Shown: positions 18,378 through 27,249 of the stretch, piece by piece
Position numbering within the stretch: position 1 is the stretch's first letter
How the letters are laid out: each line of letters begins with the position of its first letter
Assembly: GCA_944325885.1 (NCBI GenBank)
Contig: CALVBT010000005.1
Coordinates: forward strand, 1 to 64,000
Source: Candidatus Gastranaerophilales bacterium
GTDB lineage: Bacteria > Cyanobacteriota > Vampirovibrionia > Gastranaerophilales > Gastranaerophilaceae
DNA: 64,000 bases
Reading direction: 5' to 3'
Notes under the pieces: model-generated
Databases searched by the model: none
Told to the model about the DNA's origin: nothing
What the model saw: only the letters and a program-made list of their open reading frames with translations
Position numbers and translations under genes: made by a program

Positions 18378-18399
18378 AATTGACACTGATTTTTGTCAA

Positions 18400-18520
18400 C
18401 CGTACAATCATGAAAGAAGGAAACGGGGTGAAACTCCCCGGCTGAGCCGCAGCCGTATAGCCGGAATACTTTATAAAATCACCATTGCTTCGGGATTTAG
18501 GCATGGGGTCATAAATACGG
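18400..18520 (+). promoter_or_regulatory. Cobalamin (B12) riboswitch
   Basis: The conserved elements of the cobalamin aptamer occur in the right order. P1 is CCGTA (18400-18404) / TACGG (18516-18520). Next comes the TGAAAGAAGGAAAC box, then GGGGTGAAACTCCCC (18425-18439), equivalent to the GGTG..AA.TCC hairpin. GGCTGAGCCGCAGCCGTA (18440-18457) equals the 'aCtGnCCCGCnaCtGT' junction core. CACCATTG..GGGATTTAGG corresponds to the CCACTG/GGGAAGG arm, and GTCATAAATAC (18509-18519) to the 3' 'AGYCAGGAtAC' strand. The last element has one extra base compared with the usual consensus. I could not run a covariance model, but the core match is close. Confidence 0.82.
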
Positions 18521-18542
18521 ATTTTAAAATTTCCGTTCCTGT

Positions 18543-18604
18543 CCTGCAATAGTTCCGGCGCAATAAAAAAGAAGCAAAGGCAAAGCAAAGGAATTAAGCA
18601 GGGA
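18543..18604 (+). promoter_or_regulatory. Possible ribosome-site-masking expression platform
   Basis: CCTGCAAT (18543-18550) can pair with ATT(AA)GCAGG (18593-18602), which overlaps the GCAGGGA ribosome site of the ATG at 18616. No T-run terminator is visible between aptamer and gene, so control would be at translation (inference). Confidence 0.45.
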
Positions 18605-18615
18605 AAAAGTTTTTT

Positions 18616-19365
18616 ATGGCCGCTACTGTCACAAGAGGAGCAAATAACAGAATAGGCACCTGTCCTCACGGGCTGCCTATGGGAGCCTGCCCTATATGCA
18701 ACGGCATGGGCGGCGGCGGTTCTGTAAAAAAAGACAACAAACCAAAAGAAATGTCCTACAACGAGTGCTATGCCGTATGGCAAATGATGAAAGCACAAAA
18801 AGCCGCTCATCAACAGACCGTGCAGCTTTTTGCAGCACAGGATCTGGCTGCTCATTTGAACAAAATTCAAGAACAAATAAATGCACTCAAAACCATGGCG
18901 TTGAATTCTTCTCTGCCCAAACCGCTTGTAAAAGCAATAGTTGTTTTTGCAGATACTGTTTTGACCCCTGCGGCAAAGGTTGTACAGGCTGTTACAAATA
19001 CTGTCCAAAATATTGCCAATGCCATAACAAAAACAATAAATGACATAAAACAAAAAATTGTCGACATAGCAGACAAACTCACTGCCATGCTCGGTGAGGC
19101 AAAGGCTGCAATACAGAAAAAAATTGATGAAAAGTTCAAAGATATCAAGAAAAAAATCTTCAACCTCTTTGGCATAACAGGCACAGACAACGAAGAAGAC
19201 GATGAACTAAAAAGAATAGAAGAAGAAAAAAGGCTGTTTGAATTAAATACCGCAAAAGAAGCCTTATTTGAAACTAAGGACACTAAAGACAATATGGGAG
19301 CTTTTGAAAATGATGAAAACCCGCAACAGCCACAAATTACCCCTCAAGAAAGTGAAATAAAATGA
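18616..19365 (+). CDS. Zinc-knuckle-headed helical protein, first gene of the riboswitch operon
   Basis: A 249-residue protein I do not recognise. The N-terminus carries a compact Cys/His cluster, CPHGLPMGACPIC (Cys16, His18, Cys25, Cys28), followed by a Gly-rich turn; it looks like a small metal-binding knuckle. The rest is helical: residues ~45-95 and a long amphipathic stretch ~115-195 (VQAVTNTVQNIANAI...), then an acidic low-complexity tail rich in Glu, Asp and Gln. No signal peptide is seen. It is the first gene behind the cobalamin riboswitch and overlaps the next gene by 4 bp (ATGA), so the two are translationally coupled. Whether the Cys/His cluster binds Zn, Co or a cofactor is unknown. 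Confidence 0.78.
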   Translation: MAATVTRGANNRIGTCPHGLPMGACPICNGMGGGGSVKKDNKPKEMSYNECYAVWQMMKAQKAAHQQTVQLFAAQDLAAHLNKIQEQINALKTMALNSSLPKPLVKAIVVFADTVLTPAAKVVQAVTNTVQNIANAITKTINDIKQKIVDIADKLTAMLGEAKAAIQKKIDEKFKDIKKKIFNLFGITGTDNEEDDELKRIEEEKRLFELNTAKEALFETKDTKDNMGAFENDENPQQPQITPQESEIK

Positions 19366-20870
19366 GTACCATTAATCCGTATCAAGACATAGAAACAAGA
19401 AGACAATACAGAAACCACACCTACACACAGCAAAAAAACATTTCTGCACTGAAAGAAGGTGTTGTTGTAAACAATCTGATAAAAGACAAAGACAAATACG
19501 ATGAATGTCCGTCCATTGAAGATATGTACGACAATCTCGTTATCCCTGACACGACAACAAACCCTGACAGTTTTGAAAGAATTAACATAAATCACGGTTA
19601 TACAAAAGAAAAAAAACATCAAAAATCCCTGACTCCTCTTCTTGTATCAACAACAGCAGTGTTCGGAATACTGGCAGGGGCAATGGCTATGCTGAGCCGT
19701 GCGGCAAAACACAAAACAGTCCTGCCTGAATGGAAAACTCTGCCGGAAATCCCCAAGAACGTAGCAATTAACAATGAGCCTCATTTTGTTACATACTTGA
19801 TGATTAGGGACCCTAACCTCAGAAACGTCCTCGGTGCGCTGGGAGTTTTTGTACTCAGTGCGGTAGGGCTTGCGGGCAAAAATTTTGTCGACGGGGTAAA
19901 AGAAGTCTGGGTAAGAAAAAAACAGGCTGATGTTCAACGTGATTTGCAAGAAAAATTAATTGCTGTCGAAACACAGAGTTTTTCAGGAAAAATGCAAATA
20001 TTAAGAAACATGCTCTCTGAAAAAGCACGTGAACTTGATTACATCCTGCACAAGGACAACACAAACAACAAAAACACCACATTTAAAAAATTTATTTCCT
20101 TTAAAAATTCACAGCCACAAGCCAATAACAAACAAAAGGAAAATTCTTTCGGCTATGCAGCAGTCGCAATCACCAGCGCATTGATAACAGGGCTGGGATT
20201 TTTAGCATTCAAAAATGTACAAAAAACAGCAAAAACTTATGAATCATACGCCATAAAAATGGAAGAAAAAATCAAAGACCTGATTTCCAAAAACGAAAAC
20301 TGGGATAAAGAATCTCTGCAAAAAGCAAAAAATATCTGCGTTTCTATGAATTTTTCCGCAAAAAAAATAAAGGAAATGTTCAAAAATGCACAAAACCTGC
20401 CCAAAAACTTTGTCGAAGACCTGCAAAAAGAAGCAGAAAAAGTTACACAGGAAGGTGCCGAAGCAATCGCCGGCAAACCCGGTACAAAACCATCACTGTA
20501 TTCTCACACAGATGACGACAGAGCGCATTTGTACAATATGATAGTAAACTGGGAAAACCCGCTTTTAAAAATTCTTTTTGCCGGACTTTCAACAGTTACG
20601 GCCGTGGGATATGTCGGAACTGCAACAGTAGAGGGAATTAAAGAAGCTCAGGTGATAAAAGAGAATGCAAAAACAGAACTCGAACTGCAAAAACGGCTCG
20701 TCAACGTAGAATTGAATAACTTTGAAACAAAAAAACGCAGCGTTATAGAGCCGATGATGAACGAGTTTAGAGTACAGGCAATGAACGGAAAAGACAAAAA
20801 CGAACTCAAAACAAGGGCGGAAAATATCCTCTATGAAATCAAAAACGGCCCGCCGTTTGTATATTCTTAA
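19362..20870 (+). CDS. Membrane protein with internal duplication, riboswitch operon
   Basis: A 502-residue protein of unknown function with four hydrophobic segments (about residues 88-110, 152-172, 262-284 and 400-425) separated by charged helical stretches. The two halves appear duplicated. The segment GLAGKNFVDGVKEVWV plus the helix LQEKLIAVETQSFSGK in the middle is echoed by GYVGTATVEGIKEAQV and LQKRLVNVELNNFETK near the C-terminus, with the same spacing to a preceding membrane helix. This implies a two-repeat membrane fold. The 4-bp overlap with the upstream Cys/His protein, shared riboswitch and shared helical style argue that the two proteins work together at the membrane. Confidence 0.78.
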   Translation: MSTINPYQDIETRRQYRNHTYTQQKNISALKEGVVVNNLIKDKDKYDECPSIEDMYDNLVIPDTTTNPDSFERININHGYTKEKKHQKSLTPLLVSTTAVFGILAGAMAMLSRAAKHKTVLPEWKTLPEIPKNVAINNEPHFVTYLMIRDPNLRNVLGALGVFVLSAVGLAGKNFVDGVKEVWVRKKQADVQRDLQEKLIAVETQSFSGKMQILRNMLSEKARELDYILHKDNTNNKNTTFKKFISFKNSQPQANNKQKENSFGYAAVAITSALITGLGFLAFKNVQKTAKTYESYAIKMEEKIKDLISKNENWDKESLQKAKNICVSMNFSAKKIKEMFKNAQNLPKNFVEDLQKEAEKVTQEGAEAIAGKPGTKPSLYSHTDDDRAHLYNMIVNWENPLLKILFAGLSTVTAVGYVGTATVEGIKEAQVIKENAKTELELQKRLVNVELNNFETKKRSVIEPMMNEFRVQAMNGKDKNELKTRAENILYEIKNGPPFVYS

Positions 20871-20890
20871 ATTAAGAGAGTCTTTATATC

Positions 20891-21466
20891 ATGCAAATAT
20901 CATCTGTTACCTTCAAACAATTTTATACACCCTCTCTGCAAAAATCATCGCAAAGCAATGAACAGTGCGAGCTTGTCGAAACTTTCTGCAGCACTTTTGA
21001 ATTGCCGGATGAAAACTGCAACCACGCAAAATTTGATGAAAATCTTGTTCAAAAAATAGCCTCGTACAAAGAAAAAGCCATCCAACCCGTTACGGATATG
21101 CTCGCAAAAACCGACAACGAAAAAGATGCAACAGCCGGACTTTTTTTGTTAAACAGAATCATTGATGCAGGAGCAGCAGGTGCGGAAAAAACATATCCTG
21201 TAATATCAAAATTTAATTATTCAAAATCCCCGAATATCCAGACAATGCTGGCCGGAATATACAGAAAAACCCTTGTGCCTGACGGATTTTGCGCTCTTAT
21301 GACAATGTACGTTGAAAATCTGCCAAACCACAAAACAAAACCCTTTGACCCAAATGAAGAAATTTGCGGGGCAATGCTGGCTTATCTGAACAATGACAAA
21401 AACACCTGCAACAATTTTTTGGAAGGGCTGAAAAACAAAGCTGCTCTGAGCAGTTATTCAAAGTAA
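20891..21466 (+). CDS. Unknown protein, riboswitch operon third gene
   Basis: A 191-residue soluble protein without a recognised domain. It is mainly helical, with six Cys residues scattered through it (for instance CELVETFC, NDKNTC) and no membrane segment. The N-terminus (QISSVTFKQFY) resembles that of the next protein (GHNISFKQTIL), so the two may share a short targeting or interaction motif 'SxTFKQ/ISFKQ'. The ATG at 20891 has AGAGAG upstream and lies 20 bp after the previous stop. The alternation of helices suggests a HEAT-like or all-alpha fold, but that is a guess. Confidence 0.72.
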   Translation: MQISSVTFKQFYTPSLQKSSQSNEQCELVETFCSTFELPDENCNHAKFDENLVQKIASYKEKAIQPVTDMLAKTDNEKDATAGLFLLNRIIDAGAAGAEKTYPVISKFNYSKSPNIQTMLAGIYRKTLVPDGFCALMTMYVENLPNHKTKPFDPNEEICGAMLAYLNNDKNTCNNFLEGLKNKAALSSYSK

Positions 21467-21536
21467 ATTAATTTTTAAATCACTAGCAAAAAAAATTCTT
21501 CACATATTTTAAGTCCAAAAGAGAGGATAAAAAATC

Positions 21537-21977
21537 ATGATTACACCGGTCGGACACAATATATCATTCAAACAAACAATTCTTCACCCCAGCATAATAA
21601 CACTCAAAGACGAAAACAAAAAAAAGCTGGACACTGCTTTTAAAATTACAAACACAATGTTCCCTCAAAACGATGTAATCTTCGGTGTGGACAGAGAAGG
21701 AGAACTCGTCTTTGAAGTAAGAAAAAGCAACCCTATGGTGCTTCTTCTGGACAAAAAAGTCTGTGAGGCAATGCATATGACCCAGCAGCAGGTTGCAAAC
21801 CTGATAAATCTAGTGACAAGATACAAAGCAATGCACAATTATATTCACAATATTAAAGAACCGGTGCTAAGACAAAAAACAGAAAACATTGACTCTCTTG
21901 ATTCCATGGACATTGCCTACAAAGTAAGAGATGCGATTATGGACTTTAATGATTTACATCCGGATGAACTGAATTAA
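21537..21977 (+). CDS. Unknown small protein, riboswitch operon last gene
   Basis: A 146-residue soluble protein of unknown function. It starts GHNISFKQTIL, similar to its upstream neighbour, then has an alpha/beta stretch (DVIFGVDREGELVFEVRKS) and a helical C-terminus rich in charged residues. GAGAGGA lies 8-10 bp before the ATG. It is followed by a bidirectional terminator, which closes the operon that starts with the cobalamin riboswitch. No Cys/His cluster or membrane helix is present. Confidence 0.72.
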   Translation: MITPVGHNISFKQTILHPSIITLKDENKKKLDTAFKITNTMFPQNDVIFGVDREGELVFEVRKSNPMVLLLDKKVCEAMHMTQQQVANLINLVTRYKAMHNYIHNIKEPVLRQKTENIDSLDSMDIAYKVRDAIMDFNDLHPDELN

Positions 21978-24803: not shown

Positions 24804-25125
24804 TTTTTACCGGTTTTCTATTCTTAGTGACACAAAAAAAGACATCTTATCTATATATATTATACACTACATTCGTAACAAATGTAACCCCATGCAGCTC
24901 AAGCATTTAGCCGATTTTAAAAAAATTTTTTATTATTCCAAAAGATTTTAATAGCCCGCAAAGCTAACCTTTACGGTAATGATTTTTAACAGGATTCACT
25001 GTAATAATACGGCATAAGATGTTAATTATCGCAAATTGGATTTGTATCCCGATTAAAAAAAGTGAGCTATAAAGCCGCTAGATTTGGTAAATCCGATTTC
25101 AGTTTGTTTAATTAAGGAGGGAAAG
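24804..25125 (+). other. Non-coding leader of the SLH protein gene
   Basis: About 320 bp without a convincing gene. The last ~170 bp before the SLH gene contain short inverted repeats (GGATTT / AAATCC) and a very strong AAGGAGG ribosome site at 25114-25120, so a long structured mRNA leader is likely. I looked for known riboswitch cores (c-di-GMP, cobalamin) and found no acceptable match. Confidence 0.4.
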
Positions 25126-27249
25126 ATGAGAATTAACAAACTTACACTTGCTGCGGCCTTAACAATAGGTTTGATGGCAGGTACCATGAACTCGGGGATT
25201 GCAAGTAATGTGGATATTTCAAGCTTAGATATGACAAAACTTGCTGCTTGCCCGATATCCGGATGTCAGGCAGACGTAACACCTGACACAGCAGTTTGCC
25301 CCTGCGCACCTGCACCGGTAGAAGATTGCGGCTGCAATACAGGATGTGCCGCTCCATGCGACCCTTGCAACACCTGTGCGCCTGTAGATCCGTGCAACCC
25401 TTGCGAAGCAGCAGCTCCGCCGTGTGATTGCCAGCCGGTTGTACAGTCAGTTTGTGCTTCACAAATTGACGGAAAAACAATGGCAAAACAACATTATGCT
25501 TATCCGGCTAATGTTTATTCAGATACCCAATCCGTAGGCTCACAGGCCAACAATGTAATTATCGGCGAAGGTGCCGGCTGCGGATGTCCTATCGGCCCGT
25601 CAAAAGGGGTTATGGTTTCTGACCTGCCTACCTGCGGCTGCGGATGCGGTGAAGGGATTACAACAGGTGCAGCAGCAGACATGCCTGTACTCAACCCGTC
25701 TTTTGATTTAAACCAGATAATCACAGGCGGTGCAGCTCCTGTAGCAAACACAGGATGCCCTATAGAAATGCAAACATCCTCAGGAATGAATGTAATCAAA
25801 AGAACAATCGCACCTTTTGAAATGCCTATCACAGGCGGTGCATCACCTATCACGGGTGCATCATCTTTTGAAGATGTTCCTGCCGGTTTCTGGGCAGGAT
25901 GCGACATCAACCTGCTGGCAGAAAATAAAGTTGTTGCAGGCTATCCGGACAGAACTTTCAAACCGAATTTGCCTGTATCACGTGCAGAAATTGCCTCAAT
26001 GGCAGTTAACGGTTTTAACTTGAGAAGCTGCGGATGTCCGTCAAAAGAATTTAAAGATGTTCCGGCAGACCACTGGGCAAATCAAGCCATCAACACAGCT
26101 GTTGCAAACGGCTTGATGGAAGGATACCCGGGAGATTTGTTCAAACCGAACAAACCTGTAACAAGAGCAGAAGCCATGGTTACACTGGCAAAAGGCATCC
26201 CCTGCGAAATGGATGACTGCAAAGCAGACCAGATTCTGAGCAAATACTGCGACGGAAACAAAGTACCTGCCTGGGCTAAAATCCCTGTAGCAAAAGCTAT
26301 TGAATCAGGCGCACTGAACGATGTTCCGAACCCGAACGAAATTCAGGCCTGCAAAGATGCAAGCCGTGCTGATGTAGCTTCTATGTTAGAAGCAGTAAGA
26401 TGCGCTATGGGCTATTCTAAAAAAGACGTAGCTTATACTGCACCTGATTGCGGATGCACAGGCGGAGCAGCCTTTGTTGCAAAAGACGAAGTTGTTACAA
26501 TTCCTACACTTTGTTTGAAATTTGAAGACGAAATCAGCGCAAAATCCGCTACTATCGGCGACAGATTTGCAGCAAAAACAACAGAATCCGTCTGCATTAA
26601 CGGCCAGACATTCCCTGCCGGCTCCAAAGTCTACGGTAAAGTTACAGAAGTTGAAAGACCTACCGGCAACTGCAAAGGCGGTTTAAAACTTTCATTTGAA
26701 AGAATCCAGTGCCACGATTGCAAGGCAGACTTGCCTCAACAGGTTCTGACAGCTCAGGTTAAAAGCGACAAAAAGCCTAACTTCTTTGCAAAAGTAGTAG
26801 AAGCTCCGTTCAACTGGGCCGGCAGTATTGTCGGTACTGTGGGCAGAACCGTAGGCGGTGCTATCATAGCTGTCGGCAATGCAGCAGAACACGTTTCTGA
26901 CGGTGTTGGTCTGACTCTCGGAGAAACTCTTCAGGGACAATTGCCTGCAGCAGGCCGAAGCTTAATGGATTCTACAAAAGCACTTGTTAAAGCTCCTATC
27001 GACTTGACAAGAACAGCTCTGTCAGGAACCATCGGTCTGTTACAAACTACAGGCGACGAAGTTGCTTACCTCGTAGACCCGAAAGGCAACAGAGTAACTT
27101 CTGTTAACCCGAGAGAAAACATCACAGTTGCTTTCGGATGCAACTCCTGCACAGGATGTGCTGCTCCGGTTCAACCACAGCCATGCGGATGCGACCCTTG
27201 CGCACAACCTGCTCCATGTGACTGCAACAACGACTGCGGCTGCAAATAG
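25126..27249 (+). CDS. Secreted SLH-domain, Cys-rich surface protein
   Basis: A 707-residue exported protein: signal peptide (MRINKLTLAAALTIGLMAG..., cut near residue 27), a Cys/Pro-rich segment (~30-110, many CGC, CNTC and CDP motifs), an SLH domain (~247-295, AGYPDRTFKPNLPVSRAEI), a second (~308-355, EGYPGDLFKPNKPVTRAEA), and a degenerate third (~375-425). A beta-rich domain follows (~460-560), then a glycine-rich stretch, and a Cys-rich tail ending CDCNNDCGCK. SLH domains anchor proteins to cell-wall polymers; in Cyanobacteria-like lineages they also head outer-membrane porins, but no porin barrel is obvious here. The paired cysteine clusters may crosslink or bind metal. AAGGAGG gives it strong translation, fitting an abundant envelope protein. 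Confidence 0.9.
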   Translation: MRINKLTLAAALTIGLMAGTMNSGIASNVDISSLDMTKLAACPISGCQADVTPDTAVCPCAPAPVEDCGCNTGCAAPCDPCNTCAPVDPCNPCEAAAPPCDCQPVVQSVCASQIDGKTMAKQHYAYPANVYSDTQSVGSQANNVIIGEGAGCGCPIGPSKGVMVSDLPTCGCGCGEGITTGAAADMPVLNPSFDLNQIITGGAAPVANTGCPIEMQTSSGMNVIKRTIAPFEMPITGGASPITGASSFEDVPAGFWAGCDINLLAENKVVAGYPDRTFKPNLPVSRAEIASMAVNGFNLRSCGCPSKEFKDVPADHWANQAINTAVANGLMEGYPGDLFKPNKPVTRAEAMVTLAKGIPCEMDDCKADQILSKYCDGNKVPAWAKIPVAKAIESGALNDVPNPNEIQACKDASRADVASMLEAVRCAMGYSKKDVAYTAPDCGCTGGAAFVAKDEVVTIPTLCLKFEDEISAKSATIGDRFAAKTTESVCINGQTFPAGSKVYGKVTEVERPTGNCKGGLKLSFERIQCHDCKADLPQQVLTAQVKSDKKPNFFAKVVEAPFNWAGSIVGTVGRTVGGAIIAVGNAAEHVSDGVGLTLGETLQGQLPAAGRSLMDSTKALVKAPIDLTRTALSGTIGLLQTTGDEVAYLVDPKGNRVTSVNPRENITVAFGCNSCTGCAAPVQPQPCGCDPCAQPAPCDCNNDCGCK

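Follow-up and report, generated by a model that had tools for sequence, protein, structure and literature searches.

Introduction

Cobalamin riboswitches point dependably to vitamin B12 (B12) genes. Riboswitch linkage, or the argument that an importer was missing, also led to BtuM, ECF-CbrT (ECF, energy-coupling factor), CbtA and further non-canonical transporters of cobalamin or cobalt. Among the aptamer classes, AdoCbl-II (Rfam RF01689; AdoCbl, adenosylcobalamin) is compact, with the core GGAAA..GGTGAAA..CTG..CCGCA.CCGT..CGGAA and a kissing loop between L5 and L13. In other corrinoid riboswitches, the kissing loop stabilises hairpin P13, and hence a ribosome-binding site (RBS) hairpin or a terminator (PMC10653944). 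Here we describe an aptamer of this type in 64,000 nucleotides (nt) of DNA from Candidatus Gastranaerophilales bacterium (GCA_944325885.1, contig CALVBT010000005.1, positions 1 to 64,000; hereafter the window), where it precedes an operon encoding three unnamed, conserved proteins, P1, P2 and P3, and a fourth, P4. The host belongs to an order of bacteria that are common in the gut and related to cyanobacteria; their genomes use AdoCbl without producing it, and for the most part have no recognised part of BtuBCDF. The locus joins a known riboswitch class to a new, deeply conserved target, and the rest of the regulon in the family Gastranaerophilaceae is ordinary B12 biology.

Results

A covariance-model search matches positions 18407-18479 (plus strand) to RF01689 at 34.9 bits against a gathering cutoff of 36.5. 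The E-value is 1.1e-6 when 401 nt are searched and 1.4e-6 for the whole genome, and RF00174, the larger Cobalamin family, scores this aptamer at just 24.8 bits. A gathering-threshold Rfam scan of the window returns tRNAs only, and the aptamer emerges with an E-value threshold or in a genome-wide search. Orthologous operons of the same genus carry aptamers of 37.0 and 39.1 bits, over the cutoff, and the top-scoring aptamers of the family (54.4 bits) precede P1-P2-P3. The cobalamin-type aptamer that a first-pass annotation had placed upstream of the operon is borne out, with the window copy under the cutoff and copies of relatives above it. Across 36 orthologous aptamers, 25 columns are invariant, and aptamer helix P4 shows compensatory double changes in four of its five pairs.

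The linkage of riboswitch and operon was surveyed in 117 genomes of the family, which are drafts, so that an apparent absence can be an assembly gap. RF01689 matches 109 of them, 93 over the cutoff. P1 is present in 100 genomes, P2 in 97 and one or both in 101, and none of these 101 lacks the aptamer; operon homologues consistently without the riboswitch, which the first-pass annotation had named as contrary evidence, were looked for and not found. The strict aptamer core occurs in 72 of 75 P1 upstream regions (genome-contig loci), at a median of 97 nt from the start codon, and the remaining three hold visible variants. The order riboswitch-P1-P2 is constant in all 20 sampled genomes, and P3 follows in 18. 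In the same sample P4 is unmatched as a conserved operon member, and the flanking genes vary, neither the glycosyltransferase-like genes upstream nor the flavodiiron-type genes downstream being kept beside the operon. The four open reading frames first proposed as the operon are all present in the window as described, but the conserved unit is riboswitch-P1-P2-P3, with three genes.

When 386 genomes from the phylum were searched, P2 turned up beyond the family in three genomes, which belong to two further families of the order, and one marginal match (E 3e-4) lay outside the order. The P2 orthologues lie on contigs labelled Candidatus Gastranaerophilales, Melainabacteria or 'uncultured bacterium', plus a few odd labels. 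The records L133, L107 and L154 also carry the locus, under the names Fusobacterium sp. CAG:439, Clostridia and Alphaproteobacteria, and are probably mislabelled bins. Sequence comparison gives good support to the riboswitch and to its linkage with P1-P2-P3, and a literature search found nothing on cobalamin riboswitches of Gastranaerophilales.

The other aptamers of the family place the operon in a wider regulon. Of 46 such copies, with targets mostly identified from translated sequence and representatives by Pfam, 40 precede nrdD-nrdG, four btuB-btuC-btuD-btuF, one a B12-binding radical S-adenosylmethionine gene (L090 4803-6281) and one an unknown gene for a protein of 94 amino acids (L097 4657-5059), with a PTPS-like gene two genes on. 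Known B12-linked targets (nrdDG or btuBCDF) stand behind 44 of the 46, and the aptamers before the operon share their core letters with the nrdD and btu copies. The second aptamer of the window's genome precedes nrdDG (contig C5 126635-126790; L083 4636-4791) and its P6 region is enlarged by an insert of some 60 nt. By this comparison, the family aptamers constitute a real B12 regulon. The ligand is likely AdoCbl, because nrdDG and btuBCDF are classical cobalamin-riboswitch targets.

The distribution of B12 genes was examined in the same 117 genomes. The AdoCbl-dependent reductase NrdJ is found in 82 and BtuR in 86, CobS in none and a PduO-type adenosyltransferase in none over the cutoff, while BtuC occurs in 12 and a TonB-dependent receptor in 13. 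The window's genome has NrdJ and BtuR, and no BtuC (PF01032) or TonB receptor (PF00593). The operon occurs in 78 of the 82 NrdJ genomes versus 23 of the 35 others (Fisher p=8e-5, relatedness uncorrected), and in 82 of the 87 with NrdJ or BtuR; genus g18 is without the operon and has riboswitch-btuBCDF. Such a profile suggests that these cells take in cobalamin by a route unrecognised in this survey.

Downstream of the aptamer lie two predicted hairpins (Table 1), P13 and one that would mask the Shine-Dalgarno (SD) site. In the minimum-energy fold, GCAGGG (18598-18603) pairs with UCCUGC (18542-18547) within a 13-bp interrupted hairpin, and to judge from the sequence the RBS likely sits in the 3' arm, ahead of the ATG at 18616. 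This fold agrees with the masking of the GCAGGG(A) site predicted earlier for the window, and SD masking by a helix of other sequence recurs in many relatives, though not in all. Helices with clade-specific letters (GUCCUCUA/UAGAGGAU, UAUCCUUGUUUU/AGAACAGGGAUA, GUCUUUUCUUACU/AGUAAGAAAGGAC) mask the SD in these relatives, often with a U-run directly 3' of the helix, and in several clades the same helix search turned up no SD-masking helix. Competition of the 5' strand of the aptamer for the anti-SD strand was also considered; it is seen in some clades (AGAGGA; GGGAACAGGGG), is weak overall (5.6 versus 4.9) and is not claimed.

The kissing interaction was evaluated in 88 leaders by hairpin-based loop detection. 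L5 and L13 form a mean of 3.07 of four pairs versus 2.49 when permuted, a difference that kinship inflates, and the covariation is borderline (p=0.045) when unique letter combinations alone are counted. The letters of L5 and L13 change together as GUGC/GCAU, CUGC/GCAG, UAGC and CAGC/GCUG, CUGG/UCAG, and GAGC/GCUU, with all four pairs and covarying letters in most other clades, and three of four pairs in the window's own genus.

The operon proteins, P1-P4, match no named family in sequence searches of Pfam, NCBIfam, PDB, PADLOC and PHROGs, which agrees with the earlier impression that the operon holds no recognisable B12 gene. They match no TonB receptor, FecCD permease, ATP-binding cassette (ABC) ATPase or periplasmic binding protein, as would be expected of a BtuBCDF-type importer, and no enzyme family over the cutoff, as would be expected of a B12-independent isozyme. 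The weak matches that they did give were of coiled-coil type, to apolipoprotein, tape measure, ZorA, SctB and hemolysin BL, and were rejected as low-complexity similarity. The reading of P1 as a PduO-type adenosyltransferase (PF01923) was likewise rejected, since P1 reaches 13.9 bits against a cutoff of 24 and the genome has BtuR instead.

P1 carries an invariant N-terminal motif, CPHGLPxGACPICNGMGGGG (CPHG-x5-CPxC). Its Cys16, His18, Cys25 and Cys28 are invariant in 56 orthologues; Cys51 is almost as constant and shows no change in this set. Such conservation confirms the Cys/His cluster noticed at first; by its sequence, however, it looks like an ordinary zinc-type site, and the suggested corrinoid contact is speculation. 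P2 is indeed a duplicated membrane protein, as had been stated, since residues 141-239 align with 387-483 (BLASTP E 2e-8; profile-profile E 1.7e-9). Its C-terminus, KNGPPFVYS, is near-invariant, and the Lys/Arg-rich segments after transmembrane segments 2 and 4 would, from this charge, be cytoplasmic. A fold search with the P2 model gave a best Z of 8.1 at a root-mean-square deviation (rmsd) of 20, nothing above unrelated helical bundles, and deserves little weight given the poor model. The P3 model is an alpha-alpha superhelix with HEAT/ARM proteins as its top VIA matches (Z 14.0, rmsd 2.2, 133 aligned), and Foldseek returned no match for it at E <= 0.001. The predicted HEAT/ARM-like character is a fold class, and says little on function.

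Table 1. Predicted features of the riboswitch-operon locus (window coordinates)
Feature	Position	Strand	Basis
Sigma-70-type promoter: TTGACA (18380-18385), 17-nt spacer, TACAAT (18403-18408)	18380..18408	+	sequence
AdoCbl-II-type cobalamin riboswitch aptamer, core 18419-18466	18407..18479	+	RF01689, core pattern, compensatory changes in helix P4
P13 hairpin UGCUU[CGGGAUUU]AGGCA; its loop, L13, is predicted to kiss aptamer loop L5 (GAGC)	18486..18503	+	
SD-masking hairpin: 5' arm 18542-18556 (UCCUGC..UAGUUCC), 3' arm 18590-18603 (GGAAUUA.GCAGGG)	18542..18603	+	minimum-energy fold
P1, 249 amino acids: N-terminal CHCC (Cys-His-Cys-Cys) site and Cys51, then amphipathic or coiled helices; 99-127 moderately hydrophobic	18616..19365	+	
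P2, 502 amino acids: four predicted transmembrane segments, 86-117, 152-180, 259-288, 401-423	19362..20870	+	
P3, 191 amino acids: predicted HEAT/ARM-like helical repeat protein	20891..21466	+	mean pLDDT (predicted local distance difference test) 86
P4, 146 amino acids: outside the conserved core	21537..21977	+	

The promoter lies directly 3' of the preceding gene, and a TTGACA/TATTTT-like pair is found upstream of the aptamer in most relatives. A 20-bp inverted repeat, TTGACACTGATTTTTGTCAA (18380-18399), overlaps the -35 box and is a possible operator; similar repeats occur in some relatives of the same genus. P3 (20891-20920) and P4 (21537-21575) share an N-terminal xSFKQ/xTFKQ motif, which also starts other proteins of the lineage and is perhaps a lineage-specific targeting motif. 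A large Cys-rich protein with SLH-like repeats (FxDVPxxxWA) is encoded at 25084-27249 and is unrelated to the operon.

Discussion

As described above, comparison of genomes shows the aptamer, its linkage to the operon, the regulon and the auxotroph profile; from these we infer the ligand, the sign of control, the formation of a complex and the role in acquisition. The regulation is well supported by such comparison, the biochemical role is not. We tentatively favour, with some doubt, an AdoCbl-repressed operon for cobalamin acquisition that is specific to the Gastranaerophilales lineage. When AdoCbl is plentiful, the aptamer would fold, L5 would kiss L13 and P13 would be held, so that the RBS-hiding hairpin forms and the operon is off; in the many relatives with a direct U-run, the hairpin is perhaps also a terminator. 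Repression by AdoCbl is the natural reading because, in other corrinoid riboswitches that have been studied, the kissing contact strengthens P13 and with it the hairpin at the RBS or the terminator (PMC10653944). When AdoCbl falls, the operon would be made together with the oxygen-sensitive, B12-independent ribonucleotide reductase (RNR) NrdD-NrdG, joined by BtuBCDF in a few genomes. P1 with its CHCC metal site, P2 with four transmembrane segments, duplicated, long-helical and cytoplasmic by charge, and the HEAT-like P3 may then form a membrane-anchored complex that helps to acquire or salvage cobalamin in cells that use AdoCbl, do not produce it and mostly lack BtuBCDF. The stronger proposal, that P1-P2-P3 is itself the missing cobalamin acquisition system, unrelated to BtuBCDF, ECF and BtuM, in B12-auxotrophic hosts mostly without a TonB-dependent receptor, seems to us unlikely.

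Several observations weigh against acquisition under AdoCbl repression. The L5-L13 pairing is imperfect in the window's own genus, and since activating corrinoid riboswitches are known (PMC10653944), we only infer the sign of control. P1-P3 show no transporter, ATPase, beta-barrel or corrinoid-binding homology, and P2 is poorly modelled (pLDDT 62). The searches detected no P2 in G025, G030, G060 and G087 (genera g25 and g30), where the operon is riboswitch-P1-P3-P3' with P3 duplicated (loci L209-L212); because two genera keep riboswitch-P1-P3 without P2, a simple transporter is argued against. A further genome of g25, G109, has P2 on another contig. The association of the operon with users of NrdJ or BtuR weakens to p=0.03 at the genus level, 19 operon-bearing genomes have neither protein, and BtuC and the operon occur together in eight genomes. 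The unrecognised import route is itself defined by a search for BtuBCDF alone; P1-P3 gave no match to ECF-type importer components in the family scans, and the genomes were not searched for EcfT/EcfA and an S component. The uptake, storage or B12-sparing system first proposed for cobalamin or cobalt survives as a B12-linked role, which the gene profile favours, but gains no transporter or corrinoid-binding match.

A second reading is a role in which the operon moves no cobalamin and adapts the cell when NrdJ fails without AdoCbl, for example as a scaffold anchored in the membrane and connected with a switch of RNR, with replication stress, or with a change of envelope or surface. Such a role is possible, though we consider it rather doubtful. 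nrdDG is the main co-regulated target, the presence of the operon follows NrdJ, P2 resembles an anchored helical scaffold and P1 and P3 resemble cytoplasmic interaction proteins, which stay in some genomes where P2 is not found; yet the 19 genomes without NrdJ or BtuR count against this role as well, and nothing in the sequences connects the operon with proteins of replication, division or the surface. The invariance of the CHCC site and Cys51 could also point to intracellular handling of corrinoid or cobalt (storage, chaperoning or remodelling), with the site as metal or corrinoid contact. In line with this, 18 of the 56 P1 orthologues weakly match the helix region of PduO-type adenosyltransferases below the threshold (best E 0.003), and P3 resembles the bilin lyase subunits CpcE/F among many others (VIA Z 11.1). 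The Pfam matches, however, are mixed with other coiled-coil families, the HEAT matches are generic and CPHG/CPxC is typical of zinc sites, and a storage system ought to increase with B12, not decrease; handling of this kind is therefore improbable.

The sub-cutoff score of the window aptamer and its imperfect loop pairing could also mean that the aptamer before the operon has drifted to another ligand and that the genes are unrelated to B12. This appears very improbable, because copies before the same operon are the best of the family at 54 bits and the core letters are identical to those of the nrdD and btu copies. The score of 34.9 bits against 36.5 might even suggest a chance match or a remnant with no functional riboswitch, but an E-value of 1e-6, retention before orthologues in dozens of genera, the compensatory changes in helix P4 and the conserved promoter and SD hairpin already contradict it, and we find it scarcely credible.

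The preferred reading, acquisition under AdoCbl repression, would answer how Gastranaerophilales obtain B12; if the operon does not serve acquisition, it would extend the B12 regulon to targets of a new kind. In both cases, a riboswitch that points at three unnamed conserved families gives P1-P3 a testable function.

With regard to known systems, BtuBCDF under a cobalamin riboswitch shares the aptamer class and the presumed repression, and occurs in g18, which has no operon. P1-P3, unlike BtuBCDF, show no homology to a TonB barrel, permease, ATPase or binding protein, and occur far more widely (the operon in 101 of the 117 genomes, BtuBCDF in 12). From BtuM, ECF-CbrT and CbtA, P1-P3 are set apart by the family searches (Pfam, NCBIfam, PDB) alone, with no individual comparison. 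The genes of a B12-independent isozyme, nrdD-nrdG, stand behind this aptamer too in these genomes, that of the window among them, whereas P1-P3 resemble no enzyme. Among AdoCbl-II riboswitches, the locus is alike in its compact aptamer and core, with a predicted kissing loop of three in four pairs in the window's own genus, and unlike in its new target genes. Furthermore, the nrdD and btuB copies of the family have the SD in or beside the 3' strand of P13, whereas in the operon copies P13 and the SD hairpin are separate.

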